The notes under the pieces: generated by a model
Told to the model about the DNA's origin: nothing
Databases searched by the model: none
Seen by the model: the letters and a program-made list of their open reading frames with translations, nothing else
Part shown: positions 13,216-35,146 of the stretch, piece after piece
Numbering within the stretch: position 1 is the stretch's first letter
Layout of the letters: each line of letters starts with the position of its first letter
Source: Candidatus Martarchaeota archaeon
GTDB taxonomy: Archaea > Thermoproteota > Thermoprotei_A > Marsarchaeales > Marsarchaeaceae
Assembly (NCBI GenBank): GCA_023487445.1
Contig: JAMDBQ010000015.1
Location: 1-37,715, forward strand
Reading direction: 5' to 3'
Length of the DNA: 37,715 nucleotides
Translations under genes and position numbers: made by a program

Positions 13216-14223
13216 ATGGTATACATAAACCTCTGGAACCCAACCAGATCCCAGCTCGACCTGATAAGTGCCCTGATCATTTCATACCTGCTGGGCATAG
13301 TCCACGGTGTGACACCAGATGAACACACCTGGCCAATTACGTTCTCGTATTCAGTGGGGAGCTATTCGACTAAGGGAGGGGCCAAGGCTGGCCTTACCTT
13401 CTCCTCAGGATTCACGCTGCAGAGAGCGATCCTATCCGAGCTCGCCTTCCTCGCATTAGCCAACATATTTATGACGACCGAGGCTTTCGGTATCACCTAC
13501 GTGTTCGTGGGCTTGGCAATGGCCGCAGCCGGACTCTACATTTCAAGGAGATCCAACTATTTCCACATCCACTTTATCCAGTCAAAGCTTGAGCGGTTGT
13601 TCAGAATCCACGGCGACACAGTCGCCCAGAAGGAGGAACAGGGTCACAGAATAGACCCAGTTGAAGCCCAGCGCACGGATTCTGAAAGAGCCCATCTCAA
13701 ACCAGTGCCTCTGAGGATGGCTTTTGTACATGGCCTAATTGCTGGATTCGGGTTCGGCGCATTTGCACTTATAATCTACACGGTTTTGGCTCCGTCGATG
13801 CCCTCGGTTTACCTGGGATTCGTGCCCGGCCTACTGTTCGGGCTGGGAACCATGACCATGCAGATTGCATACGGCGCGGGATTCGCAACCTGGCTCAGGA
13901 GAACAAAGCATCTGACAATGGAGGGTATCCAGTACTTGGGGAGGGGAATCACGAGGTATGTGCTTACATACGGAGGCATCGCCTTCATGGTAGCGGGTTT
14001 CGCCGTGCTCGCATATCCACAAATACTGGATTACGGTATCACAACTTCGATCCACATCCATAACCTCGACGACCTGAACATAGGTTTCTTCTTGGTTGTC
14101 CTCGTGGTTGGACTGATGGGCGCACTGGGATACCGTAAATCGCTCAGGCAGGCGATTGAGATGGGATTGGTGGAGACCAACCCCCCGCTAGATAGGGGTG
14201 GAAAGATTGAACCCGCTAACTAG
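13216..14223 (+). CDS. Polytopic membrane protein, UreH/NicO-like candidate metal transporter
   Basis: Hydrophobic multi-TM protein with an HGVTPDEHTWPITFSYSVGSY motif in TM1 and later histidine-containing stretches; directly followed by a DtxR-family gene. Confidence 0.6.
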   Translation: MVYINLWNPTRSQLDLISALIISYLLGIVHGVTPDEHTWPITFSYSVGSYSTKGGAKAGLTFSSGFTLQRAILSELAFLALANIFMTTEAFGITYVFVGLAMAAAGLYISRRSNYFHIHFIQSKLERLFRIHGDTVAQKEEQGHRIDPVEAQRTDSERAHLKPVPLRMAFVHGLIAGFGFGAFALIIYTVLAPSMPSVYLGFVPGLLFGLGTMTMQIAYGAGFATWLRRTKHLTMEGIQYLGRGITRYVLTYGGIAFMVAGFAVLAYPQILDYGITTSIHIHNLDDLNIGFFLVVLVVGLMGALGYRKSLRQAIEMGLVETNPPLDRGGKIEPAN

Positions 14224-14225
14224 GC

Positions 14226-14654
14226 TTGGATCCAAGGCGCTGGTTGATCAGAGGCGGCTGCACAGTGTTTGACCTGAGCAGAAAAGAAGTCTCCTACCTG
14301 AGAAGCATTTTTACACTCGGGGGGAAAGGTGTCAGACTCATTGAGCTTTCAAGGAAACTCGGCGTTGCAAGTCCAAGCGCACTGCAGGAGGTAAGGCACC
14401 TTGAGGCCAAGGGGCTGGTGACGAATACAAGAGGGTCGATTTCGCTTACGGATACGGGTCTGAACGCTCTCGCATCGCACCGGAGCGCCCACATAGCTAT
14501 AGAGACTCTTCTCGCCCAGCACGGCATAAGCGGAAGAGAAGTTTGCAAGCAGATACACGCATTCGACTACGCGCTTCCGGAAGACATGGTGCGAAAAGTA
14601 TACGCTGCTCTTGGGAAACCATCCGAGTGCCCGCAAGGCCACAGCGAATGTTAG
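14226..14654 (+). CDS. DtxR/MntR-family metal-dependent transcriptional regulator
   Basis: HTH IELSRKLGVASPSALQEVRHLEAKGLVTNTRGSISLTDTGL and metal-binding/dimerisation pattern REVCKQIHAFDYALPEDMVRKVYAALGKPSECPQGH. In-frame start codon not resolved; GTG/TTG in this region are possible. Confidence 0.85.
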   Translation: MDPRRWLIRGGCTVFDLSRKEVSYLRSIFTLGGKGVRLIELSRKLGVASPSALQEVRHLEAKGLVTNTRGSISLTDTGLNALASHRSAHIAIETLLAQHGISGREVCKQIHAFDYALPEDMVRKVYAALGKPSECPQGHSEC

Positions 14655-21891: not shown

Positions 21892-21927
21892 GGTGAGAGG
21901 TTGCTTGGCTGCGGGGTTGAACAGTCC

Positions 21928-22881
21928 ATGACAAGAATCCTGTTGGCGGCTGACCTGCACGGCTCGGAGACCGTCTACTCAAAACTCCTTAACTCCGCCA
22001 GATTCTACGGGGTCGCCCACATAGTGGTAGCCGGAGACCTCACGGGTAAGGTGCTTGTCCCCGTAGTTGAGCGAGGAGGGGAATATGACTTCGACTTCTT
22101 CGGTTCGCGCAAAAGGGTTGAGCCGTCCAAGTTCGGATCCTATGCTAAGGAGATAAGATCCGCGGGCCACTACTATAAGGTTGTGACCAAGGCGGAGTTC
22201 GACGAGCTAGCAGCTGGAGGAGAACCTCTCAAACGCGCCTTCGTAGATGCAATGCTCGAATCGCTCAGACTCTTCTTAGCCAAGGCGGAGGAAAGAATGG
22301 CGTCCGCCGGGGCTACGCTGTACCTTATCGCCGGCAACGACGACTACCCCGATGTCGCTCAGTTTCTTGTAAACTCTCAGACGGGCCGTGTTGTCGAATA
22401 CGAAAGCGCTCCCCGTGAACTCAAACATCTAACCCTAGCCGGGGTAGGCTACTCCAACCCCACGCCCTGGAACTCGCCGAGGGAGCTTTCGGAGGATGAG
22501 CTTTGGAGGATGCTTGACGCTAAGCTACGCGGGCTCGAACCACGCAGAACCGTGCTCGTCGCCCATCCGCCTCCGTTCGACACCTCGATCGACCGCGCCC
22601 CCAAGCTCAAAGGGTTCAAGCCTGTGGTGTCGGGGGGCAGGATTGAGACTGAGCCGGTTGGCAGCCACGCAGTACGCAGGGTGATCGAGTTGTTCGAACC
22701 CGCTGTCTCCCTCCATGGACACATACACGAATCCGGCGGAGTAGACTACGTAGTCGGTGCAAGCGGCAGACGCGTGTCTGCGTACAACCCGGGAAGCGAG
22801 TACACTACAGGGGTATTGAGGGGGGTGCTCCTAGATTTAGGGGAGGATGGCTCCTCGAGGCACCTTTTCGTAAGGGGCTAG
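21928..22881 (+). CDS. Calcineurin-like metallophosphoesterase
   Basis: MTRILLAADLHGS, VVAGDLTG, LIAGNDD, VAHPPPFD, SLHGHIHES: canonical metallophosphoesterase motifs. Confidence 0.9.
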   Translation: MTRILLAADLHGSETVYSKLLNSARFYGVAHIVVAGDLTGKVLVPVVERGGEYDFDFFGSRKRVEPSKFGSYAKEIRSAGHYYKVVTKAEFDELAAGGEPLKRAFVDAMLESLRLFLAKAEERMASAGATLYLIAGNDDYPDVAQFLVNSQTGRVVEYESAPRELKHLTLAGVGYSNPTPWNSPRELSEDELWRMLDAKLRGLEPRRTVLVAHPPPFDTSIDRAPKLKGFKPVVSGGRIETEPVGSHAVRRVIELFEPAVSLHGHIHESGGVDYVVGASGRRVSAYNPGSEYTTGVLRGVLLDLGEDGSSRHLFVRG

Positions 22882-22887
22882 CGCAAA

Positions 22888-24342
22888 TCATCTTCGGGGG
22901 AACTGCACCAGCCATTTCCTTCCGTCTCTTTTTATAAATTCATCAGACTCCTTCGGTCCCCATGTTCCCTGGTTGTACTGGTGTACTTCAAACGAGTGTT
23001 CCGCCGATATCAGCGGCTCCACTATCTCCCATGACAACTCTATCTCGTCGCTCCTCGTGAACAGTGACGGGTCACCGTTGAGCGCGTCCAAAAGTAGTCT
23101 CTCATAGGCGTCTGGAAGCTGCTTTTTGCTGATATCAGAATATTTGAACGACATATCCACAGGCTGAGTCGTCATCCCGGCTCCAGGCTGCTTCGCCTCA
23201 AACCGGAGGTTTATGCCCTCGTCCGGCTGTATCCTGATGGTGATCCTGTTGGGGGAAACTTCCTCGTTTGAAAAGAGGAGCAGCGGAACCTCTTTGAACT
23301 GCAGTGTAATCTCGGTTGTCTTAAGCGGCATCCGCTTTCCGGTTCGCATGTAAAAAGGTGTCCCCCTCCACCTCCAGCTCTCAACGTAGAGTTTCGCGGC
23401 TACAAACGTCGGAGTTTTGGATGACGGGTCAACTTCTGGCTCATCCGTGTATCCCGCGTACTGGCCAAGCACACACTCAGAACTCTGAATTGGCCGCACA
23501 GCCTGAAGCACCTTAACCTTCTCGTCCCGCACCGCCTTAGGCGTGTATCTGATCGGAGGATCCATCGCGATAAGAGCCAGGAGCTGCAGCAGGTGGTTCT
23601 GCAGCATGTCGCGAACAACCCCCGCCTTATCATAGTATCCCCCCCGGTGTTCAACGCCGATCTCTTCCGCGACGGTTATCTGCACGTGGTCAACGTGGCT
23701 CCTGTTCCAAAGCGGCTCGAATATGCTGTTCGCAAACCTGAACGCAAGTATGTTCTGAACGGTTTCCTTCCCCAAGTAGTGGTCTATCCTGTAAACCTGT
23801 TCCTCCGGGAACGCCTGGTGGACCTTGTCGTTAAGCGCCTTAGCGCTTGCAAGGTCGTTGCCGAACGGCTTCTCGACCACCACCCTCCTCCACCCTTTGC
23901 CGGGCTTGGCGAGGCCGGTCATCCCAAGGTTCTCAATCACCTGCTCGTACAGAACCGGAGGAGTCGCAAGATAGAATACGCAGTTCGCAGCCCCCTTTGC
24001 GTCAGAGGCTGCCTCAAGCCTTTTCTTAATCTCCGCATAGGTAGCCATATCGGAGTAGTCACCCACGAAGTAGCTGATTGACTTTGAGAACTGCACCCAC
24101 TTGTCCTGGTCGGAGCCTCCAGTATACTCGCTTACCCCTTTAGCCAGTTCTTCCCTGAACGACTCGTCGGTGTAATGGGTTCGGGACACCCCCACTATAG
24201 AAACGCCCGCGGGCAGCATCCCCTTCTCGTAGAGACTGTACAGAGCAGGCACAAGTTTCCTGCGTGTTAGGTCGCCTGAGGCGCCGAATATAAGTATGAT
24301 AGAAGGGTTGCGATCGGGTTTGGCGTTCACGTTGATGCTCAT
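22888..24342 (-). CDS. zwf: Glucose-6-phosphate 1-dehydrogenase (bacterial Zwf type)
   Basis: LIFGASGDLTRRKLVPALYSL, VVEKPFGND, YRIDHYLGKETVQNILAFRFAN, LQLLALIAMDPP, YESWRW-type motif LYVESWRWRGTPFYMRTGKRM. Confidence 0.96.
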   Translation of the reverse strand: MSINVNAKPDRNPSIILIFGASGDLTRRKLVPALYSLYEKGMLPAGVSIVGVSRTHYTDESFREELAKGVSEYTGGSDQDKWVQFSKSISYFVGDYSDMATYAEIKKRLEAASDAKGAANCVFYLATPPVLYEQVIENLGMTGLAKPGKGWRRVVVEKPFGNDLASAKALNDKVHQAFPEEQVYRIDHYLGKETVQNILAFRFANSIFEPLWNRSHVDHVQITVAEEIGVEHRGGYYDKAGVVRDMLQNHLLQLLALIAMDPPIRYTPKAVRDEKVKVLQAVRPIQSSECVLGQYAGYTDEPEVDPSSKTPTFVAAKLYVESWRWRGTPFYMRTGKRMPLKTTEITLQFKEVPLLLFSNEEVSPNRITIRIQPDEGINLRFEAKQPGAGMTTQPVDMSFKYSDISKKQLPDAYERLLLDALNGDPSLFTRSDEIELSWEIVEPLISAEHSFEVHQYNQGTWGPKESDEFIKRDGRKWLVQFPRR

Positions 24343-25259
24343 GTTCCTTCATCAACGTGTTTAACTGCGTGCCCTCCGAACTCGTTACGCATAGCAGCCA
24401 AGAGCTTCGCGGCGTAGCTTTCCCTCCTCGAAGCAAAGCGCATGTAGAGCGCAAGGGTTATCACAGGCGCAGGAACAGAATTGTCTATAGCCTCCTTTGA
24501 AGTCCATCTTCCCTCACCGGAGTCTTCCACCCAGGGAGCGATCTGCTTAAGCTCCTGGTCCTTTGAAAGCGCGTCGGACAAAAGGTCAAGGAGCCAAGAC
24601 CTGACCACGCTCCCATAGCGCCAAACCTCGGCAACCTTGTGTAGATCCAAGTTGAACTCCTGCTTTGAGCGGAGCACGTCGAACCCCTCCGCAAGGGACT
24701 CCATCATTCCATACTCTATCCCGTTGTGAACCATTTTGACGAAGTGACCCGAACCAGCTGGCCCCATCCATCCCCACCCCTTGTCTGGGGCGGGGGCAAG
24801 CGTCTGGAACACGGGTGTTAGAGCCTCAACAACCTCCTTCCTGCCACCCACCATCATACTGTAGCCCTCCTCCAGACCCCATATCCCCCCGCTTGTGCCT
24901 ACGTCAACGAAGTTAAGCCCCGCCGACTCCACCTTAGCCGACCTCCTCAAAGTGTCTCCGTAGAAGGAGTTTCCACCGTCTATGATTGTATCACCCTTGG
25001 AAAGCACCTGGATCAGGGAGTCAATCATCTGCTCCGTGGGTTCACCCGCGGGCACCATGACCCAGACTGCCCGGGGGGGATGCATCATCTCCGCAAGCTC
25101 GCCGAGACTGGAGGCAGCCTTGACACCCGGCTGCTCCGAAGCGAGTTCGAAAGCCTTCTCCTTGGTTCTGTTGTGCACGAACACGGTGTGTCCTCCCCTG
25201 GCGAGCCTCCTTGCTATGTTTGCACCCATTCTTCCAAGTCCGACTACAGCTATCTCCAA
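24339..25259 (-). CDS. gnd: 6-phosphogluconate dehydrogenase, decarboxylating (short GntZ/YqeC-type)
   Basis: IAVVGLGRMGANIARRLARGGHTVFVHNRTKEKA, DVGTSGGIWGLEEGYSMMVGG, GPAGSGHFVKMVHNGIEYGMMESLAEGFDVL. TTG start; 4-nt overlap with zwf. Confidence 0.95.
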   Translation of the reverse strand: MEIAVVGLGRMGANIARRLARGGHTVFVHNRTKEKAFELASEQPGVKAASSLGELAEMMHPPRAVWVMVPAGEPTEQMIDSLIQVLSKGDTIIDGGNSFYGDTLRRSAKVESAGLNFVDVGTSGGIWGLEEGYSMMVGGRKEVVEALTPVFQTLAPAPDKGWGWMGPAGSGHFVKMVHNGIEYGMMESLAEGFDVLRSKQEFNLDLHKVAEVWRYGSVVRSWLLDLLSDALSKDQELKQIAPWVEDSGEGRWTSKEAIDNSVPAPVITLALYMRFASRRESYAAKLLAAMRNEFGGHAVKHVDEGT

Positions 25260-25366
25260 CTTAGTTTCTCTGCTCCCCTAGACTATTGCCGCAAGGGAGT
25301 AATAAGACACTGCTGACGTCATCACACCCCTGTAGGATGTGTACTCTCTGCGCTTCCATGGTAAAC

Positions 25367-28171
25367 CTACAGGCTGTCCGCAACCGCCTTCAGAGCCTCA
25401 AGCGTCTTGGCTTGGTCGAAGTGTATTGAAACCACCCGCCGCCCCCTGCTCTGCAGGGCGGCCATGTCGCCCATTGCCTGAGCCACCTTGAGTACTCCGA
25501 AGCTTAGCGAAGAATTCTTGGACCCGAGTTCGTCGGGCACCCCGCAGTCTTCCCCGCCTTCGGAGACGAGCTGCAGAAACACCCCCCGGCCAGCGTCTCC
25601 CTTGTGTAGCTGCCCCGTTGAATGCAGGAAGCGGGGGCCGTATCCCAGCGTTACCGCCACCCTCAGCCTGTCCCTCAACTTCAACCGCATTTCTTCCAGA
25701 CATTCAGCGGACCCGTGATCCTCCTTGATATACGCTTGAACACCTACGTACGAAGGCTTCTGGGGACCATCTAGGACACCGCCGAGAAGCCTCCGCAAAG
25801 GCTCCGAGCCGACTGATTCAATCTGGGTCTTCGCGGCTTGAACCGAAGCGTCGCCGTACACCTGTATCCCGTTGAGTGAAAGGAGAGGCGTGCCCTTGCT
25901 GAGCCTGCCCGTCCTCAAGTAGTCCGCCACCATCCGCCTCGCAAGCTCCTTGCTCGCTTCGACGTTGGGCTGGTCGAACGGGTTGATTTTGAGGAAGTAT
26001 CCTGCAACCGCCACGGCGAACTCCCAGGTGAACAAAAGTCCCCCTACGTCGTACACATCTCGAAGATGGGTGTCGACCACTGGGTGACCCGCCGCCGCGA
26101 TGGACTGCAGTTCACCATCCAGCCCGTCGTCTCCTAACGCCACGTGGACGAACAGCCTGTCGGGTCCGTACACCGATGGTTTACCAAGGGTCTCCCTCAC
26201 AACCGGCAGAATCCCCCGCCCGTCTTTACCTGTGCTTTCAGCCACGAGTTGTTCAACCCAGTCTGCGAAGTAGGAGGCGGGTCCCGTTGTAACCAGCGTG
26301 AGCTTGTCCCGCCCCTGTAAAGCCATCTTGCCAAGCGAGCACCCAAGCCTCAAACCCGGGTTTTCGAACGGGCTGTCCGAAGCACACGCCTGGCTCAGCG
26401 TAGCCGCTCCTTTGAGAAGCCTGTCCAAATCAATCCCTGCAAGCGCCGCGGGCACAAGCCCGAAGAACGTGAGCGCCGAGTATCTGCCACCCACGTCGGG
26501 GTTGGCGAGGAACACGTCGAGGAACCCTCGTCTTCGGGAAAGTGCTTCAAGCTCTGTGCCGGGATCGGTTATGGCTACGAAGTGTTCTCCAGCATGTGTA
26601 CCCAGCTCCTCCTGGGACAGATTGTAGAAGTATTTCAGCAGGGAAATCGTCTCAACTGTTCCACCCGACTTGGAGGAAACTATGTAAAGCGTCTGCGACG
26701 GGCGGTTGTGCTTGGCGGCGTCGATGACCTCGCCGGGATCGGTTGAATCCAGAACGGAAAGCTTCAGCCCGGAGGCTGACTCGGAGAACAGCTTGGAATA
26801 CATTCGAGGAGCAAGACTCGACCCACCCATTCCTAGGAGCAGCACCCGGCTTACGCCGAGAGCGCGCGCGGCTTCGACAAGACTTTTCAGCCTCTTAACC
26901 TGCCCCGGCATGGTTTTGGGTAGGCTGAGCCACCCCAGCCTGTTCACTATTTCGTCAGGAGAGTTCTTCCAGAGAGTGTAGTCGGCTGACCATATTCGCT
27001 GAACCACTTTATCCGAGGTGACCTGTAAAAAAGCGTCCTTCAGATCCTGGTTTCTGTACTCTGCGAGCCCGGCCTTCGCACCAGGGTTTAGCTTGGCCGC
27101 CTTTTCCTCAATCGTCTTCAACGCCTGTTGCACGGACTCGGAGAAGAGTCTGACTCCTTCCGAAAGCAGGTTTTCGGTTACACTGTTCATGTCCACGCCA
27201 ACATCGGATAGTTGTCGCAGGTGGTTCCTAGCCTCCTCCAAGCCTTGATCCAAGGTGTTCGCCACTTTGCCGTGGTCGAGTATGGCTTCCAGGGTCTGCG
27301 GTGGAACGGTGTTCACGGTGTCTGGGCCAACCAGGTTGTCCACGTACATGGTGTCGGGGTAAGCCGGGTTCTTGGTGGAGGTGCTCGCCCAGAGCGGCCT
27401 CTGTACGTTTGCGCCGAGCTTCTTTAGTTCAAGCCACCTATCGCCTGAGAACGCCCGCTTAAAGTGGGAGTAGGCTTCCTTGGCGTTGGCAACCGCCGCC
27501 TTCCCCATGAGCTCGTTCTTACCCAGTTTCTGAAGCTCCTTATCTACCGCGGTGTCAACCCTACTTACGAAGAACGACGCTACAGATGACACCCGGCTGA
27601 GGGTTCCACCTTTTTTGGCGTACTCCTCGAGCCCGGCGATGTAGGCGTCCACGACTTCCTTGTACCTCTCCACCGAGAAAATCAGCGTGACGTTCACATT
27701 TACACCCTCGGCGGTGAGCCTCCTGATGGCATCTAGACCGGCCTTGGTTGCGGGTATCTTCACCATTATATTGGGTCTTGAAAGTGTTCGAACGAATTTA
27801 ATAGCTTCCTCAACCATTGCGTCTGCGTCGTCGGATATCTCCGGGCTAACCTCGATGCTCTGGAATCCGTCCAGCCCGTTCAACTTGTCGTACACGGGGC
27901 GGAAAACGTCGGCTGCTTCGCCCACGTCCTCAAGCATCAGCTGGAAGAATATTTCGCGTGGCGTCATGCCTCTACGGCTGAGCTCAAGGATTTCTCCATC
28001 GTACTCGTCTCCGCTTGCGATCGCCTTGTCGACAATGGTGGGGTTGGATGTCGCACCCCTCAGACCCTTGTCGACCAGCGACTTGAGCTCGCCCGAGCGT
28101 ATGAACGACCTCTTTATGAAGTCAAGCCAAATCGACTGACCCGCCTTCGCGTATTCTTCGAGACTCGCCAT
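25367..28171 (-). CDS. Bifunctional transaldolase/glucose-6-phosphate isomerase fusion
   Basis: N-terminal transaldolase: SIWLDFIKRSFIRSGELKSLVDKGLRGATSNPTIVDKAI, NIMVKIPATKAGLDAI, NVNVTLIFSVERY. C-terminal PGI: VLLLGMGGSSLAPRM, VSSKSGGTVETISL, NPDVGGRYSALTFFGLVPAALAG. Confidence 0.95.
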   Translation of the reverse strand: MASLEEYAKAGQSIWLDFIKRSFIRSGELKSLVDKGLRGATSNPTIVDKAIASGDEYDGEILELSRRGMTPREIFFQLMLEDVGEAADVFRPVYDKLNGLDGFQSIEVSPEISDDADAMVEEAIKFVRTLSRPNIMVKIPATKAGLDAIRRLTAEGVNVNVTLIFSVERYKEVVDAYIAGLEEYAKKGGTLSRVSSVASFFVSRVDTAVDKELQKLGKNELMGKAAVANAKEAYSHFKRAFSGDRWLELKKLGANVQRPLWASTSTKNPAYPDTMYVDNLVGPDTVNTVPPQTLEAILDHGKVANTLDQGLEEARNHLRQLSDVGVDMNSVTENLLSEGVRLFSESVQQALKTIEEKAAKLNPGAKAGLAEYRNQDLKDAFLQVTSDKVVQRIWSADYTLWKNSPDEIVNRLGWLSLPKTMPGQVKRLKSLVEAARALGVSRVLLLGMGGSSLAPRMYSKLFSESASGLKLSVLDSTDPGEVIDAAKHNRPSQTLYIVSSKSGGTVETISLLKYFYNLSQEELGTHAGEHFVAITDPGTELEALSRRRGFLDVFLANPDVGGRYSALTFFGLVPAALAGIDLDRLLKGAATLSQACASDSPFENPGLRLGCSLGKMALQGRDKLTLVTTGPASYFADWVEQLVAESTGKDGRGILPVVRETLGKPSVYGPDRLFVHVALGDDGLDGELQSIAAAGHPVVDTHLRDVYDVGGLLFTWEFAVAVAGYFLKINPFDQPNVEASKELARRMVADYLRTGRLSKGTPLLSLNGIQVYGDASVQAAKTQIESVGSEPLRRLLGGVLDGPQKPSYVGVQAYIKEDHGSAECLEEMRLKLRDRLRVAVTLGYGPRFLHSTGQLHKGDAGRGVFLQLVSEGGEDCGVPDELGSKNSSLSFGVLKVAQAMGDMAALQSRGRRVVSIHFDQAKTLEALKAVADSL

Positions 28172-28176
28172 CGGGG

Positions 28177-30237
28177 TTACATCCCCCTTCTTTCAAGTGC
28201 CCTGCGACACGCCGACACAACGGCTTCCACGGTGAACCCCAGCTTCTCCATCGCGACCTGGCCGGGTGCGCTCGCTCCGTATCGATCCAGGCCCACAACC
28301 TCCCCGTCCAGCCCCACATATCTTTCCCATCCTTTCCTCGCACCCGCTTCCACGACAACTCTTGCTCTTACGTCTCTCGGGAGAACCGACTCTCTGTATT
28401 CCGCGGGTTGGCGGTCGAACAGCTCCCAGCTGGGCATGGAAACAACTCTAACCCTGACTCCTTCGGAGGCAAGCTTCTTAGCCGCCTCGAGCGCGAGCTG
28501 AACCTCTGAACCCGTGCCGATGACTATGAGGTCTGGCTTTCCACTTTGGGGCTCCCAGAGGATGTACGCTCCTTTGTCCACCGCTGGCTGGGAACCCAGT
28601 TTCTCCCTATCGAACACGGGGACCTTCTGGCGCGTCAGAACCAGCGCCGTTGGTCCGTGGTCGTTTTCGAGCGCCGATTTCCACGCTTGGGCGACCTCGA
28701 ATGCATCAGCCGGCCTGATCAGGGTCATGTTGGGCACGGCGCGTATACTCATCAGGTGCTCCACAGGCTGGTGTGTCGGCCCGTCCTCTCCGAGACCTAT
28801 GCTGTCGTGTGTGAACACGTACACCACCCTGACCCCCATAAGCGCTGCAAGCCTCATCGGGGGTCTCATGTAGTCGGAGAAGGTGAGGAAGGTAGCGGTG
28901 TAGGGGATCAGTCCCCCGTGCAGCGCGATCCCGTTTGCAATGCTACCCATGGCGTGCTCACGCACCCCGAAGTGGAAGTTCCTCCCGCCCTCGTCATAGG
29001 GGAAGTCTCCCACTCCTTCGATAATCGTCTTCGTGCTCGGCGCAAGGTCCGCAGACCCGCCGACCAGCCATCCGATGCTCTTGGATATGGCGTTGATCAC
29101 CTTCCCTGAGGCATCCCTTGTGGCTATCGGCGACGACTGGGGTGAGAACAGGTTTGCCAGCTGGCTGTCCCACCCCCGCGGGAGCTTGCCGTTCAGCTGA
29201 AGCCTGAGCCGCTCCGCCTGTTCAGGGTACTTTAATGTGTAATCTTCAAGGAGAGAGTTCCACGATTCCTCGGCTCTTCTGCCTCTTTCGACGGCCTCGC
29301 GCATATGCGCGTATACTTCGTCTGGTACGTAGAACTCCTTATCCGCCGGCCACCCCGCGCTGATCTTCGACTGCTTAGCCTCCTCAGGGCTCATGGGTTC
29401 CCCGTGAACCTTGGCGGTGCCCGCAAGCGGGCTGAACCGTCCTATGGTTGACTTGGAGATTATCAGGGAGGGCTTGTCGCTACGTGAAACCGCTGCTCTC
29501 AGCGCTTCATCAATGTCCTGGATCTTGGAGCCGTCAACCGGGCCGTAGACCCTCCAGCCATATGATCGGAACCGTTGGGCAACATCCTCTCTGAAAACCA
29601 CATCTGTGTCCCCTTCGATCTGGATGTGGTTTGAGTCATAGATGTAAACGAGTTTCCCAAGCTCCCACGTACCCGCGAGGCTCGCCGCCTCCGACGACAC
29701 CCCCTCCTCCAGGTCTCCGTCTGAGACTATTTCGAACACCCTGTGGTCGAACAGGTCGTACCCCGGCCTGTTAAACGTCTCCGCAAGCAGCCTCTCCGCG
29801 ACCGCCATACCAACGCCGTTTGCGAATCCCTGACCCAGCGGGCCCGTGGTGGCGTTGACACCCGGAGTCAGCCCGTACTCGGGGTGGCCCGGTGTCCTGC
29901 TGCCCCACTGCCTGAACTGTTTAAGATCATCCATTGAGAGGTCGTATCCGGTCAGATGTAGCAGCGAATACTGGAGAGCGCTTGCGTGCCCCGCTGAAAG
30001 TACGAACCTGTCCCTGTCAGCCCATAAAGGGTTCCGGGGGTTGTGTTTGAGGAACCTGTCCCACAGCACGTACGCCGCCTCAGCTGCACCCATCGGGGTT
30101 CCAGGGTGTCCTGACTTAGCCTTCTGAACCATGTCGAGCGCAAGAAACCTTATGGTGTTTGCGCAGAGAGCGTCTATCTTCGACAAACCGGCTTCGGCGA
30201 GTGTTCCCGCCTCGGCGCCGCTAACTTCGTTCAACAC
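28177..30237 (-). CDS. tkt: Transketolase
   Basis: MVQKAKSGHPGTPMGAAEAAYVLW, TGPLGQGFANGVGMA, VSDGDLEEGVSSEAASLAG, FHFGVREHAMGSIANGIALHGG, THDSIGLGEDGPTHQPVEHLMSIRAVPN. Confidence 0.97.
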   Translation of the reverse strand: MLNEVSGAEAGTLAEAGLSKIDALCANTIRFLALDMVQKAKSGHPGTPMGAAEAAYVLWDRFLKHNPRNPLWADRDRFVLSAGHASALQYSLLHLTGYDLSMDDLKQFRQWGSRTPGHPEYGLTPGVNATTGPLGQGFANGVGMAVAERLLAETFNRPGYDLFDHRVFEIVSDGDLEEGVSSEAASLAGTWELGKLVYIYDSNHIQIEGDTDVVFREDVAQRFRSYGWRVYGPVDGSKIQDIDEALRAAVSRSDKPSLIISKSTIGRFSPLAGTAKVHGEPMSPEEAKQSKISAGWPADKEFYVPDEVYAHMREAVERGRRAEESWNSLLEDYTLKYPEQAERLRLQLNGKLPRGWDSQLANLFSPQSSPIATRDASGKVINAISKSIGWLVGGSADLAPSTKTIIEGVGDFPYDEGGRNFHFGVREHAMGSIANGIALHGGLIPYTATFLTFSDYMRPPMRLAALMGVRVVYVFTHDSIGLGEDGPTHQPVEHLMSIRAVPNMTLIRPADAFEVAQAWKSALENDHGPTALVLTRQKVPVFDREKLGSQPAVDKGAYILWEPQSGKPDLIVIGTGSEVQLALEAAKKLASEGVRVRVVSMPSWELFDRQPAEYRESVLPRDVRARVVVEAGARKGWERYVGLDGEVVGLDRYGASAPGQVAMEKLGFTVEAVVSACRRALERRGM

Positions 30238-31244
30238 TGCCCACCTGCCCTCAATTGATCCAGCAGGTACGCGGTAACCCCTATCAGGGCCGCTTCCTCG
30301 GTGGTGATGACCCTTAAAGGCATTTTTCGCAATATCCCACTCATACTCCTCTTATCACTGAAGGAATGTATAAAGCCATCACTCTGCAGGATAGGAAGCA
30401 CCTTGGGGGGTATGCCGCCGCCCAGGTAAACTCCGCCCGTAGCCATAACCTTGAGCGCAAGGTTGCCCGCCTCGGACGCAAGTATCGAGGAGAACATTTG
30501 CAGGGCGCGCGCACACACCGGATATTCGCCTGGGTGGTGTAGGGCGGCGTCCACTATCACGGGCGTCCTGTCCTCTGCCTGGGCGAGACCGGGTGGTTCA
30601 CTCAGACGCTGCGCGTCCTCCTTAGATTTCAGGTAGTCGTAGATTCTCGCTATACCCGGCCCGGAGCAGAGCGTCTCAACATCCACTCTTTCGCCTCTGT
30701 GTGCGAGGGCGGCTGCTAGCTCGAATTCTTCTGGTGTTCGAGGTGCAAAGTCGCAGTGGCCCCCCTCTGAGGGGTGGGGCGTGTACCCGTTGCCGTACCA
30801 TGTTAGAAACGCTTCCCCCAGGCCTGTTCCGGGTGCTACAACTCCTATGGTTGATTTATCCACGGCTTCTCCACGGTTGATCGTCGCTAGCTGGTCGTGT
30901 GATAAATGTGGGATCGAGTAGGCTGTAGCGTATACATCGTTCACCAAGAACACTCGGTCGGCTCCCAGAGCCAACTGCAGCTTTTCCTCGCTGACATCCC
31001 ATCCGAGGTTAGTCAATCTAGCGGAGCCCGAGACCACTGGGCCGGCGACGCAGAACGCCGCGTAACCCATGCGCCCAGAGCCGCGGAGGAACCCTTTAAC
31101 AAGCTCCTCCATCGACGCGTACTCGCCAGATTTATACGTTGATTTCTTGAGCAGCGAACACTTCCCGTTCTCATAGGTGTAGAGCGCCAGATTGGCTTTG
31201 GTTCCACCTATGTCGCCCGTGATGAGATTAGTCATCGACGACAC
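30231..31244 (-). CDS. glk: Glucokinase, bacterial Glk family
   Basis: LITGDIGGTKANLALY, VVAPGTGLGEAFL, HPSEGGHCDFAPRTPEEFEL, ATGGVYLGGGIPPKVLP. Confidence 0.92.
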   Translation of the reverse strand: MSSMTNLITGDIGGTKANLALYTYENGKCSLLKKSTYKSGEYASMEELVKGFLRGSGRMGYAAFCVAGPVVSGSARLTNLGWDVSEEKLQLALGADRVFLVNDVYATAYSIPHLSHDQLATINRGEAVDKSTIGVVAPGTGLGEAFLTWYGNGYTPHPSEGGHCDFAPRTPEEFELAAALAHRGERVDVETLCSGPGIARIYDYLKSKEDAQRLSEPPGLAQAEDRTPVIVDAALHHPGEYPVCARALQMFSSILASEAGNLALKVMATGGVYLGGGIPPKVLPILQSDGFIHSFSDKRSMSGILRKMPLRVITTEEAALIGVTAYLLDQLRAGGQC

Positions 31245-31273
31245 CCGTAGCCCGCTGGCCCCCTAGCCCCGTC

Positions 31274-32257
31274 TCAGCTGAGCGCTTGGTATTCCTGCAT
31301 TGCGGTTGGGCTACCCAGATACGTAGGCGTCCTCTGAGACACGGATTCAGGTTCGATTTCAAGTATCCTGCGCCTGCCGTCGGTGGCGACGCCTCCAGCC
31401 TTTTCGGTTATAAACGCCAGAGGGTTTGACTCGTACTGGAGCCTGTACTTGCCCTGGGGTGCGTCGGAAAGCTCTGGGTAGGCGAAGAATCCTCCTTTGC
31501 AAAGCACCTGGTTGTAGTCTGCGACGAAGCACCCGCTGTATCTTAGCTTATACTTCTTGGCCTCCAGCGAATCCACGTAGCGCACGAGTTTGGGGCTCCA
31601 CTTCCCCCTGGATCCGCCTACGCCGTACACTTCTCCAGGATCGGGTATTCTGACACCCTCAGCTGCCAACACGAATCTACTCTCCGCCGATGGACCTCCC
31701 AAGTCTGTGAAGGAATACACGCCGCCTTCGAGAGCCAGCACAAGCTGAGTGTACGGCCCATAAAGGAAATACATGGAGGCGTATAGTCTGTCGCCGCGTG
31801 CGGGTAACTCCTCGTCTCTGTAGACACCAACTATTGTGCCCACCGGGTTGTCCGACGCCACGTTGGAGGAGCCGTCGATGGGGTCGTATACAACCGAAAA
31901 CTCCCCTGTTGGGGCGCTGCGCGGCTGCGACAGCTCCTCGGATGCCACGTGTCTTACAAGACCGCTTCCGAGCAGCTTCTCAGTCAGAAGGTCGTTAGCC
32001 CACACGTCCGCCTGAATCTGGTGCTCTCCGTACACGTTCACCCCGGTGGTTGAACCCAGTCTAGCAGGGATGCCGTCGCGGATCGCAACACAACTCGTGG
32101 CGATTATCGAAGCCAGCCTAGAAAAAGAGCGATCAGCGTCATTCAGAAACGAGCCGAGGTTAGCCCTAGAGCGCTTGTCCCCCTTAGGCTCCAAGCGTGG
32201 TAGATTTTGTTCTTCCCGATCCGTATGTGACATTCTGGCTACACGGAGAGGTTCCAC
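31274..32257 (-). CDS. fbp: Fructose-1,6-bisphosphatase class I (likely start ATG at 32233)
   Basis: GEFSVVYDPIDGSSNVASDNPVGTIVGVYR, KYKLRYSGCFVADYNQVLCKGGFFAYPE, YRLQYESNPLAFITEKAGGVATDGRRRILEIEP. Confidence 0.94.
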   Translation of the reverse strand: MEPLRVARMSHTDREEQNLPRLEPKGDKRSRANLGSFLNDADRSFSRLASIIATSCVAIRDGIPARLGSTTGVNVYGEHQIQADVWANDLLTEKLLGSGLVRHVASEELSQPRSAPTGEFSVVYDPIDGSSNVASDNPVGTIVGVYRDEELPARGDRLYASMYFLYGPYTQLVLALEGGVYSFTDLGGPSAESRFVLAAEGVRIPDPGEVYGVGGSRGKWSPKLVRYVDSLEAKKYKLRYSGCFVADYNQVLCKGGFFAYPELSDAPQGKYRLQYESNPLAFITEKAGGVATDGRRRILEIEPESVSQRTPTYLGSPTAMQEYQALS

Positions 32258-32343: not shown

Positions 32344-32520
32344 CTAGCTCAGCACGGGCACCTCAGCAGCAGCCGCCTGGAACCCGACTTTCCTGTGTGT
32401 GCCATCGCAGTACGGCTTCTTGGACGACTGACCGCACCTGCAGAGAGCGGTGAGTGTCTTCCCGTCAACCATAATCACATTCGGACCGTTTTCCGTGCTC
32501 TTGATTACAACGCTGGGCAT
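32344..32520 (-). CDS. CDGSH iron-sulfur domain protein, 58 aa (not in the supplied ORF track)
   Basis: Translated manually: MPSVVIKSTENGPNVIMVDGKTLTALCRCGQSSKKPYCDGTHRKVGFQAAAAEVPVLS*. Exact CxCxx(S/T)xxxPxCDG(S/T)H motif. Confidence 0.93.
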   Translation of the reverse strand: MPSVVIKSTENGPNVIMVDGKTLTALCRCGQSSKKPYCDGTHRKVGFQAAAAEVPVLS

Positions 32521-32789: not shown

Positions 32790-33233
32790 TTATTTGGAAG
32801 CTGGAGTTCTGATTCTGGACTTCTCGCGGACAACATCGTACTCAAACCTGTCTATCAGCCTCTTCAGACCATCGCATATCTCGTTAACCTTCGCCTCGGC
32901 GTCAGCCTTTATCTTCTGGATTTCAACCGCCCGGTACACGTGGCAGTATCCTCCGGCTGTCAGCCCCTTCACTTCCTTGTAGACGAGGCCCGCACCAACC
33001 AGCTTCTGCAGTCCCCTGTGAACCGTGCTTCTGTCCCTGCTGACCCAGCGGGCTACGTCGTCAAGCGTGGCTGGGCCGTTTTTCACAAGGTCGTAGAACA
33101 TTGAGGCTTCGATCGAGTTGAGGTTGTATATACACGTGAGTAGATCCGTGCATGTAGCATCTACCCTTGTAACGGTGTGGACGCTGCTCATACGTTCAAA
33201 CCTGATGCCCGTGGTGTTACTTAAGTCTTGCAC
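32790..33233 (-). CDS. HTH transcriptional regulator (TrmB-like winged helix); start may be ATG at 33191
   Basis: SIEASMFYDLVKNGPATLDDVARWVSRDRSTVHRGLQKLVGAGLVYKEVKGLTAGGYCHVYRAVEIQKIKADAEAKVNEICDGLKRLIDRF: winged HTH plus coiled coil. Confidence 0.8.
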   Translation of the reverse strand: MQDLSNTTGIRFERMSSVHTVTRVDATCTDLLTCIYNLNSIEASMFYDLVKNGPATLDDVARWVSRDRSTVHRGLQKLVGAGLVYKEVKGLTAGGYCHVYRAVEIQKIKADAEAKVNEICDGLKRLIDRFEYDVVREKSRIRTPASK

Positions 33234-33249
33234 GGTATTGACAATACCG
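33233..33249. promoter_or_regulatory. Perfect palindrome CGGTATTG-A-CAATACCG in a divergent promoter region
   Basis: 8-bp arms with 1-nt centre; immediately adjacent to the TATA-like TACTTAAATAA (about 33254-33264) serving the + strand gene at 33292. Confidence 0.75.
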
Positions 33250-33291: not shown

Positions 33292-33699
33292 ATGGAAACC
33301 CAGATGGGGCTGGACTATACAGTGACAACAGCCGAGGATAGCAAGCGGGTTCTCGACCTGCTCGCAGAGAAACTCAAGCAAAAGGGTTTCGGCATACTCT
33401 CCAAGATCGACGTGCAGTCAGTGCTCAAAGACAAAACCGGTGCCGACGTGGGACCCTACGTGATACTCGACGTATGCAAACCCGACAGCGCGAAAAAGGC
33501 AATCGAGGCCCACCCGGAGATCGGAATGGTTCTCCCATGCAAGATACTCGTCCGAAGCGAAGGTAAAACCACCAAAGTATCACTGTACAGGCCGACCGAA
33601 ATGGTTGTGCGAGCAGGTTTCACGGATCTGGCTCAGCTGGCTCGGGAAGTAGAGCAAGATCTGAAATCCGTCCTAGAAGGCGTTTCCGCCACCAGGTGA
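33292..33699 (+). CDS. DUF302 family protein
   Basis: GLDYTVTTAEDSKRVLDLLAEKLKQKGFGILSKIDVQSVLKDKTG..YVILDVCKPDSAKKAIEAHPEIGMVLPCKILV is the DUF302 pattern. Confidence 0.9.
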   Translation: METQMGLDYTVTTAEDSKRVLDLLAEKLKQKGFGILSKIDVQSVLKDKTGADVGPYVILDVCKPDSAKKAIEAHPEIGMVLPCKILVRSEGKTTKVSLYRPTEMVVRAGFTDLAQLAREVEQDLKSVLEGVSATR

Positions 33700-33704
33700 A
33701 TAAA

Positions 33705-34127
33705 ATGGATGAAGACAGCGAATTCCAGAAAATAAGGGAGAAGAAGCTCAAGGAACTAATGGCCGCGGGATCATCTAAACCCGCTTCCACAAACGGGTCT
33801 CCGAACAAGCCAATTCAGCTTTCAGACGCGACCTTCAAAAGTGAGGTGTCAAAGTATCCCGTGGTTGTGGTTGACTTCTGGGCGCCGTGGTGCGGCCCAT
33901 GTAGAATGGTTGCCCCAATCGTAGAGCAGTTGGCCTCAGAGTACGCCGGAAAGGTTGTGTTCGGTAAACTCAACGTGGACGACAATCCAGTCACAGCGAA
34001 TGAATTCGGCATACAGAGTATACCCACCATGCTCGTGTTCAAGGATGGTCAACCAGTTGACGGATTCATAGGTGCCGCCCCCAAGGCACAGATCGAACAG
34101 AAGTTCAAACCATACATATCGGCGTAG
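33705..34127 (+). CDS. Thioredoxin with charged N-terminal extension
   Basis: WAPWCGPCRMVAPIVEQLA active site; QSIPTMLVFKDGQPVDGFIGA; N-terminal DEDSEFQKIREKKLKELMA extension. Confidence 0.95.
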   Translation: MDEDSEFQKIREKKLKELMAAGSSKPASTNGSPNKPIQLSDATFKSEVSKYPVVVVDFWAPWCGPCRMVAPIVEQLASEYAGKVVFGKLNVDDNPVTANEFGIQSIPTMLVFKDGQPVDGFIGAAPKAQIEQKFKPYISA

Positions 34128-34147
34128 GCTCCGGTAGTGGATACCCC

Positions 34148-35146
34148 GTGGATGCCCAGTACGATGTAGTGGTGGTGGGAGGAGCGGCTGCTGGGCTCAC
34201 CGCTTCCCTTTACACTGCTAGACAGGGCTTGAAGACCCTAGTGGTTACAAAGGATATCGGAGGCCAAGCTCTGCTCACCAATGAAATACAAAACTATCCC
34301 GGGTTCGCCGAGATCTCCGGGTTTGAACTTATGAATAAGTTCAGGGAGCAGGCGGAGCGATACGGCGTCGAGTTTCTATACGACGAAGTAGTCGGGGTGA
34401 AGATGGCGGAAGAGGGGTGCTTCAGCGTCAAAACACGTTCGGGTGACGTAGGCACATGCGCCGTTATCCTCGCTTTCGGAAAGACACCCAGGGATCTAGG
34501 AGTTGAGGGCGAGGAGAAGTTCAAGGGGAAAGGAGTGTCTTACTGCGCGGTGTGCGACGGCCCCCTTTTCAAAGGGAAGAGCGTGGCCGTGGTTGGCTCG
34601 GGTGAGCCTGCTCTTGAAGCCGCTAACTATCTTTCAGGAGTATGCGCCAAGGTGTACGTCGCACAGAGGACTGCTAAACCCATCGGGCGCGACGACTTGG
34701 TGTCGACGCTCAAGTCTACGCCCAACATCGAGTTCCTAAACTCCGTTGAGGTAAAACGGATAAACGGGGACACCAAGGTCAGGTCGATCACCCTAGTTGA
34801 CGCATCTTCTCCGAAGGATGGAAGGGAGGAGAAGGTGCTTCCAGTTGACGGCGTATTCGTGGAAATGGGTTACGTAACCAGGACCAAGTTCCTAGAAGGT
34901 CTGGTAGAACTCAACGGCCTAGGCGAAGTGGTGACTGACAAGGACGGGTCGACATCCACTCCTGGGGTTTTCGCCGCGGGCGACGTGACCGACATACCCT
35001 ATAAGCAGGCGATCATATCCGCGGGCCAAGGCGCGTCTGCTGGTTTGTCTGCCTACAACTATGTTCAGAAGCTTCGGGGAAGACCAGTGTCCAAGGCTGA
35101 CTGGAGAAGTCTGAAACCTACGCCCACACAGAAGCCCGAGGGCTGA
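34148..35146 (+). CDS. trxB: Thioredoxin reductase (TrxB family); GTG start
   Basis: VVVVGGAAAGLTASLYTARQG FAD motif, YCAVCDGPLFKGKSVAVVGSGEPALEAANYL with CxxC active site, TPGVFAAGDVTDIPYKQAIISAGQGASAGLSAYNYV. Confidence 0.94.
   Translation: MDAQYDVVVVGGAAAGLTASLYTARQGLKTLVVTKDIGGQALLTNEIQNYPGFAEISGFELMNKFREQAERYGVEFLYDEVVGVKMAEEGCFSVKTRSGDVGTCAVILAFGKTPRDLGVEGEEKFKGKGVSYCAVCDGPLFKGKSVAVVGSGEPALEAANYLSGVCAKVYVAQRTAKPIGRDDLVSTLKSTPNIEFLNSVEVKRINGDTKVRSITLVDASSPKDGREEKVLPVDGVFVEMGYVTRTKFLEGLVELNGLGEVVTDKDGSTSTPGVFAAGDVTDIPYKQAIISAGQGASAGLSAYNYVQKLRGRPVSKADWRSLKPTPTQKPEG

Follow-up and report, generated by a model that had tools for sequence, protein, structure and literature searches.

Probable displacement of native transketolase and transaldolase genes by a bacterial-type oxidative pentose phosphate operon in a Thermoproteota archaeon

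A contig assigned to Candidatus Martarchaeota archaeon (Thermoproteota; JAMDBQ010000015.1 of assembly GCA_023487445.1) carries six genes for a bacterial-type oxidative pentose phosphate pathway. This poses the question whether a bacterial operon has taken up residence in an archaeal genome, and what became of the native genes whose functions it duplicates. The window analysed here is the entire contig (C8; 37,715 nucleotides). It belongs to a 603 kb, 22-contig archaeal metagenome-assembled genome (MAG), which is 71.3% complete and 0.3% contaminated; our analysis covered 602,764 of its 603,241 bases. We consider it likely that this archaeon gained a bacterial glk-tkt-talpgi-gnd-zwf operon, lost its native Tkt and Tal, and kept Rpe and RpiA, with the pathway running as proposed below.

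A bacterial-type operon between archaeal genes

The six same-strand genes described by the first-pass annotation are all intact on the minus strand (Table 1) and are transcribed in the order fbp-glk-tkt-tal-pgi-gnd-zwf. Their spacing is operon-like. The gnd and zwf genes overlap by 4 bp and glk and tkt by 7 bp, while 5 bp separate tkt from tal-pgi and 29 bp separate fbp from glk; the sole longer gap, 107 bp, lies between gnd and tal-pgi.

Table 1. Features of the window discussed in the text
Feature	Coordinates	Strand	Basis
zwf, bacterial-type glucose-6-phosphate dehydrogenase, 484 aa	22888..24342	-	TIGR00871, PF00479/PF02781
gnd, short 6-phosphogluconate dehydrogenase, 306 aa	24339..25259	-	TIGR00872
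tal-pgi fusion, transaldolase + phosphoglucose isomerase, 934 aa	25367..28171	-	PRK09533
tkt, full-length bacterial transketolase, 686 aa	28177..30237	-	TIGR00232
glk, glucokinase, 337 aa	30231..31244	-	PF02685, TIGR00749
fbp, class I fructose bisphosphatase (FBPase), probably of archaeal descent	31274..32257	-	PF00316, PF18913
metallophosphoesterase, archaeal left flank	21901..22881	+	best matches in same-family genomes
trxA-trxB, archaeal right flank	33696..35146	+	same-family identity and adjacency
CDGSH iron-sulfur protein, 58 aa, upstream of fbp	32344..32520	-	PF09360, 49.5 bits (cut-off 29.5)
small TrmB-domain protein, candidate regulator, upstream, same orientation	32790..33233	-	PF01978, 49.3 bits

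All operon proteins except FBPase exceed the curated NCBIfam cut-off of their matching model: Zwf with 631 bits (cut-off 401; the match spans residues 13-477), Gnd with 378 bits against a model, gnd_rel, that is named NAD-dependent (cut-off 297), Tal-Pgi with 1077 bits (cut-off 712; residues 2-931, with both domains on one chain), Tkt with 879 bits (cut-off 682) and Glk with 232 bits against TIGR00749 (cut-off 225). FBPase scores above both of its Pfam cut-offs and under all bacterial NCBIfam class I cut-offs. When aligned to solved glucose-6-phosphate dehydrogenases, Zwf carries the active-site motif RIDHYLGKE. The catalytic lysine of KIPATKAG is found in the Tal half of the fusion, GMGGSS, GGRYS and ESTGK in its Pgi half, and YDPIDGSSN in FBPase. 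The enzyme activities of Zwf, Gnd, Tkt and Tal are predicted on the strength of these matches.

The operon is embedded in genes of the host's own family. A gap of 6 bp separates the end of zwf from the metallophosphoesterase gene, for which all five same-family genomes provide the best matches (45-51% identity). On the other side, trxA-trxB starts ~1.4 kb past fbp; the products are 55% (TrxA) and 58-64% (TrxB) identical to same-family proteins, whose genes are likewise adjacent. At the far left of the window, treX is 57% identical to its counterparts in same-family genomes. The earlier description of the flanking genes as archaeal in style is thus upheld, as trxB, the phosphoesterase gene and treX all match same-family genomes best. 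The same is true of the sequence composition, for which a tetranucleotide comparison had been suggested: the operon lies at a distance of 0.19 from the genome (0.18-0.24 for its 5 kb pieces), inside the 5-95% range of 0.12-0.28 spanned by the genome's own 5 kb pieces, and the bacterial loci that carry the operon lie at 0.35-0.50. In codon usage, the six genes rank from the 49th to the 93rd percentile of the genome. Neither a bacterial placement of the contig nor a chimeric join, the two outcomes named beforehand as contradicting an archaeal host, was observed. Mis-binning is unlikely, since both flanks best match the same family and since the operon resembles the genome in codon usage and tetranucleotides.

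Zwf is exceptional in this part of the archaeal tree. Its C-terminal family was detected in one of 60 near relatives, one of 229 class genomes and one of 398 phylum genomes, and the match was always the genome studied here; the samples overlap, hold one genome per species, and the absence applies to the genomes searched. The search itself works, as 9 of 14 control genomes matched, all of them bacterial. The Zwf operon was not found in five same-family and four same-order genomes, and a literature search found no case of Zwf in Thermoproteota. The claim that Zwf is rare in archaea therefore agrees with the class and phylum samples. We rejected the idea that Gnd is common to other class members, because the class holds distant paralogues only (best 63.5 bits versus 684).

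Where might the operon have come from? The best 80 Tal-Pgi relatives among 84,980 species genomes are all bacterial records, mostly of Chloroflexota and Actinomycetota with a few Spirochaetota, and the closest reach 50-51% identity. In many of the bacterial loci found in this way, tkt, gnd or zwf adjoins tal-pgi, and the gene order is matched in part (tkt-talpgi-gnd-zwf; glk-tkt-tal-pgi in locus L061). The sequence sets for our trees were chosen through Tal-Pgi, so that they allow a coarse view of the donor. Here, Tkt groups with two Chloroflexota (support 95), Tal-Pgi falls inside a Chloroflexota/Spirochaetota set (99), Zwf stands beside one Spirochaetota and one Anaerolineae sequence (86/84, weak), and Gnd lies among bacteria at an unresolved position. 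Zwf, Gnd, Tkt and Tal-Pgi share 45-59% identity with bacterial homologues, mostly from Chloroflexota. As the identities stay in this range, either the donor would be unsampled or the transfer would be old. The best match of Glk in plasmid records comes from Acetobacteraceae (48%).

Some of the records compared are themselves unusual. Two that are titled Bifidobacterium breve MAGs (L065, L068) encode Tkt nearly identical to that of Ilumatobacteraceae/Actinomycetota and are probably mislabelled. The Tal-Pgi and Tkt of a Pleurocapsa minor MAG (L043) are placed within Chloroflexota clades, which may reflect transfer or a contaminating contig.

The first gene of the operon has a different affinity. 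Class I FBPase (PF00316) is above cut-off in 5/5 same-family relatives, and none of the ten order genomes contains PF01950, the archaeal FBP aldolase/phosphatase family. The window copy is 41-45% identical to same-family, 38-41% to haloarchaeal and 31-37% to bacterial FBPases. In the tree it groups, on a long branch, with archaeal sequences, and the split from the bacterial ones is supported at 100/99. It also shares its best NCBIfam model, and the failure to reach that model's cut-off, with a relative's FBPase. Because all five relatives possess the enzyme and the window copy groups with archaeal ones, fbp was probably not part of the transfer, and a native FBPase gene now heads the acquired operon. 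The first-pass annotation had proposed a wholesale bacterial transfer. The trees bear this out for Zwf, Gnd, Tkt and Tal-Pgi, but a bacterial origin of all six genes was rejected on the fbp evidence.

Loss of native genes at a conserved locus

In all five same-family relatives, the non-oxidative pentose phosphate genes are arranged as PfkB-tktA-rpe-tktB-tal, followed by a tRNA and a PHP-domain gene (in G005 the contig stops within tktA). These relatives encode a split archaeal transketolase, TktA/TktB, not a full-length Tkt; in G001, both halves and the FSA/MipB-type transaldolase were confirmed by profile. The conserved neighbour of the family's tal is an intron-containing, serine-like tRNA (L139 9861-9954; L186-L190).

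The genome studied here retains rpe on contig C20 (49078-49800). Directly after it comes the tRNA that follows tal in the relatives; tktB-tal is missing between the two, as are tktA and PfkB ahead of rpe. Upstream of rpe lies an adenosylhomocysteinase-like gene pair, as in G003, and downstream lie arcTGT, an Sm-like protein, TFB, NAC and PAN, as in G001 (names by inspection). As these syntenic neighbours sit on both sides, the loss has occurred at the ancestral locus in mid-contig and is not an assembly gap. On contig C22, the PHP gene is still present together with its neighbour proS. Used as queries of the recovered genome, the relatives' tktA, tktB and tal matched only the bacterial operon.

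This loss is a finding beyond the first-pass annotation. The operon encodes a Tkt and a Tal, whereas Rpe is missing from it and is the very function for which the native gene was kept. Since the operon brings what is redundant with the lost genes and lacks what was retained, the pattern suggests that the bacterial operon displaced the native non-oxidative pathway. In the history that we propose, a Thermoproteota archaeon would have acquired a bacterial glk-tkt-talpgi-gnd-zwf, inserted downstream of the host's class I FBPase gene. With Tkt and Tal-Pgi newly available, the native tktA/tktB and short transaldolase would have become redundant and would then have been lost, while native Rpe and RpiA, missing from the operon, would have been retained.

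Several observations weigh against this history. The operon is carried by one genome only and thus comes without an independent assembly, and no donor closer than ~59% identity was found. The MAG being 71% complete, an archaeal Tkt/Tal could lie in unrecovered DNA elsewhere. Contig C20 (73.5 kb) has a GC content of 48% and a third-position GC (GC3) of 0.50, below the other contigs, and its tetranucleotides are the most divergent; its genes are nonetheless ordered as in the family, and none of them has a near-duplicate on another contig. As to the pathway, no lactonase was found: PF01182 occurs in 0/10 order genomes, and E. coli Pgl (YbhE-type) has no match in this genome, 29% of which is unrecovered. 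The lactone may hydrolyse by itself, or a lactonase may be encoded in the part not recovered.

How else could a bacterial operon come to lie in this contig? An assembly chimera or mis-binned bacterial DNA, in which the operon is joined to archaeal contig ends, would fit its occurrence in one draft MAG, the lack of Zwf in all family, class and phylum relatives sampled, and tetranucleotides that lie toward the upper end of the genome's range. It would however need join points very near both operon ends, given the same-family genes 6 bp from zwf and ~1.4 kb from fbp, plus a mimicked codon usage. The bacterial loci compared are far more distant in tetranucleotides (0.35-0.50 vs 0.19), the fbp at the operon head looks archaeal, and it would be mere coincidence that tktA/tktB/tal, which the operon complements, are lost from the native locus. 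We regard such a chimera as extremely improbable. An origin of the operon in the family's ancestor, with loss from every relative in place of a gain in this genus, also seems very unlikely. A fully adapted codon usage and the lack of a close donor mean that the gain need not be recent, but the operon is absent from the five same-family genomes, the four same-order genomes and the remaining class and phylum samples, and the archaeal non-oxidative cluster is kept in 5/5 relatives. A third scenario concerns fbp alone. If all six genes came from one bacterium, fbp would look archaeal through its long branch; fbp does sit within the same operon, few FBPases were sampled, and an approximately unbiased (AU) test does not reject its grouping with bacteria (p = 0.09). 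Set against this are class I FBPase in every same-family genome, the higher identity to the family than to bacteria, the strongly supported split and the model behaviour shared with a relative's enzyme, and we judge a bacterial fbp to be unlikely. Acquisition of the five genes behind a native fbp, followed by loss of the native Tkt and Tal, thus remains our preferred explanation.

Predicted pathway and genomic neighbourhood

Zwf, Gnd, Tkt, Tal, RpiA (C11 10160-10894) and Rpe are all encoded in the genome. Glk would phosphorylate glucose to glucose 6-phosphate, which Zwf, followed by a lactonase or by spontaneous hydrolysis, would convert to 6-phosphogluconate. Gnd would release CO2 and form ribulose 5-phosphate, from which RpiA and Rpe would make ribose and xylulose 5-phosphate. 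Tkt and Tal would turn these into fructose 6-phosphate and glyceraldehyde 3-phosphate, and the Pgi half of the fusion would return fructose 6-phosphate to glucose 6-phosphate. Triose might return via FBPase, triosephosphate isomerase (TPI) and a DhnA-type aldolase.

The cofactor can be predicted from the nucleotide-binding loops. An aspartate at the end of strand beta2 is typical of NAD-dependent 6-phosphogluconate dehydrogenases, while NRS marks the E. coli-type NADP enzymes. The beta2 loop of Gnd reads HNRTKEK, in which NRT resembles the NRS of the NADP enzymes, and 10 of the 11 bacterial homologues compared have aspartate there. The corresponding loop of Zwf carries an arginine. Zwf and Gnd would thus probably both make NADPH. 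Among the homologues compared, the NRT loop of Gnd is common to one Thermoleophilia sequence only (L045).

Does the pathway run as a cycle? Besides PGI and FBPase, the genome encodes an archaeal TPI (on C22), and the aldolase candidate is the DhnA-type enzyme on C17. This enzyme scores under the fructose-bisphosphate aldolase (FBA) equivalog cut-offs, and no dedicated enzyme reaches one, so that the assignment is not secure. Complete cyclic oxidation of glucose to CO2 is a hypothesis, as no lactonase was found and a sequence does not reveal the direction of flux. An alternative that bears on flux only, and is compatible with the origin favoured here, is a mainly linear use, in which the operon supplies NADPH and pentose phosphate, Tkt, Tal and Pgi work reversibly, and glucose is not oxidised completely in a cycle. 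The genome encodes a type II glyceraldehyde-3-phosphate dehydrogenase and a phosphoenolpyruvate synthase, so triose can leave or enter a lower pathway; the aldolase is ambiguous, and thioredoxin and thioredoxin reductase genes lie close to the operon. FBPase and PGI within one operon would, on the other hand, close the loop. We consider the chances of linear use to be evenly balanced. It is doubtful that the oxidative pentose phosphate cycle became the lineage's main route of glucose oxidation after the bacterial operon displaced the archaeal pathway at the conserved locus. The main output is likely to be NADPH and pentose phosphate, made from glucose of alpha-glucan or trehalose.

E. coli eno, pyk, pgk, gltA and acn had no match in the recovered DNA, which we do not count as loss given such distant queries and a completeness of 71%. 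Few matches came from strict motif scans for enzymes of lower glycolysis and of the Entner-Doudoroff pathway, and this is likewise not taken as absence.

Other genes of the window encode a sugar ABC transporter, a GH31-like alpha-glucosidase and a TrmB-type regulator, and its GH13 genes resemble treX/treY/treZ (some by inspection). These sugar genes are consistent with the release of free glucose from alpha-glucan or trehalose, which would need a glucokinase. Upstream of fbp, the CDGSH gene sits between the small TrmB-domain regulator and fbp; any link to the operon is putative. A perfect palindrome, GGTATTGACAATACC, at 33234-33248 immediately precedes the start of the small TrmB-domain regulator and adjoins a TATA-like box that belongs to the divergent genes DUF302-trxA-trxB. 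As it occurs once in the genome, it is probably an autoregulation site, and a search for promoter boxes shared between TrmB-type regulators and sugar genes revealed no regulon. At 13216-14654, a membrane protein without a Pfam match is followed by a DtxR-like metal-dependent regulator, a possible metal transport pair. Rfam gave no match in the window.

Relation to known systems and significance

The closest known systems are the bacterial tkt-(tal-pgi)-gnd-zwf operons of Chloroflexota and others (L011, L008), which share the enzymes, the Tal-Pgi fusion and part of the gene order. In the bacterial L061 (glk-tkt-tal-pgi), Tal and Pgi are encoded by separate neighbouring genes, whereas they are fused here. 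Unlike the bacterial operons, the present one has an archaeal host, an archaeal-type fbp at its head and no lactonase gene, and identity is confined to 45-59%. The family's PfkB-tktA-rpe-tktB-tal cluster, from which rpe was retained, serves the same interconversion of pentose and hexose phosphates, with a split Tkt, a short FSA/MipB-type Tal and no oxidative branch, in contrast to the full-length Tkt and Tal-Pgi fusion found here.

For Tardisphaerales/Ca. Marsarchaeota (GTDB o__Marsarchaeales), probably the order of the present genome, a non-oxidative pentose phosphate pathway has been reported in almost all members, along with bacterial transfers in sugar metabolism (PMC12542729); the parts of that report considered here treat the non-oxidative branch only and do not mention Zwf or Gnd. 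A complete oxidative pathway has been predicted in Anstonellales (Micrarchaeota), which belong to DPANN and not to Thermoproteota, and the portion of that account drawn on here describes neither a Tal-Pgi operon nor displacement at a native locus (PMC12892359). Haloferax volcanii, as summarised in a later paper, operates the same oxidative branch through the archaeal Zwischenferment Azf, a novel non-Zwf glucose-6-phosphate dehydrogenase, in contrast to the bacterial Zwf here (Pickl and Schonheit 2015, cited in PMC9700705). An archaeal oxidative pentose phosphate pathway is thus not new in itself; what appears to be new is a bacterial operon displacing native genes in Thermoproteota.

That archaea acquire operational genes from bacteria is well established. 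Evidence is rare, however, of a central pathway being exchanged between domains with both the native genes that disappeared and the complementary one that stayed in view. The present case suggests a route by which core modules may be replaced: a multi-gene operon arrives, creates redundancy, and only the redundant native parts are deleted. The operon also places a Zwf-type NADPH source in a phylum in which the other genomes searched had none, and from this follows a testable prediction on NADPH supply in the lineage.

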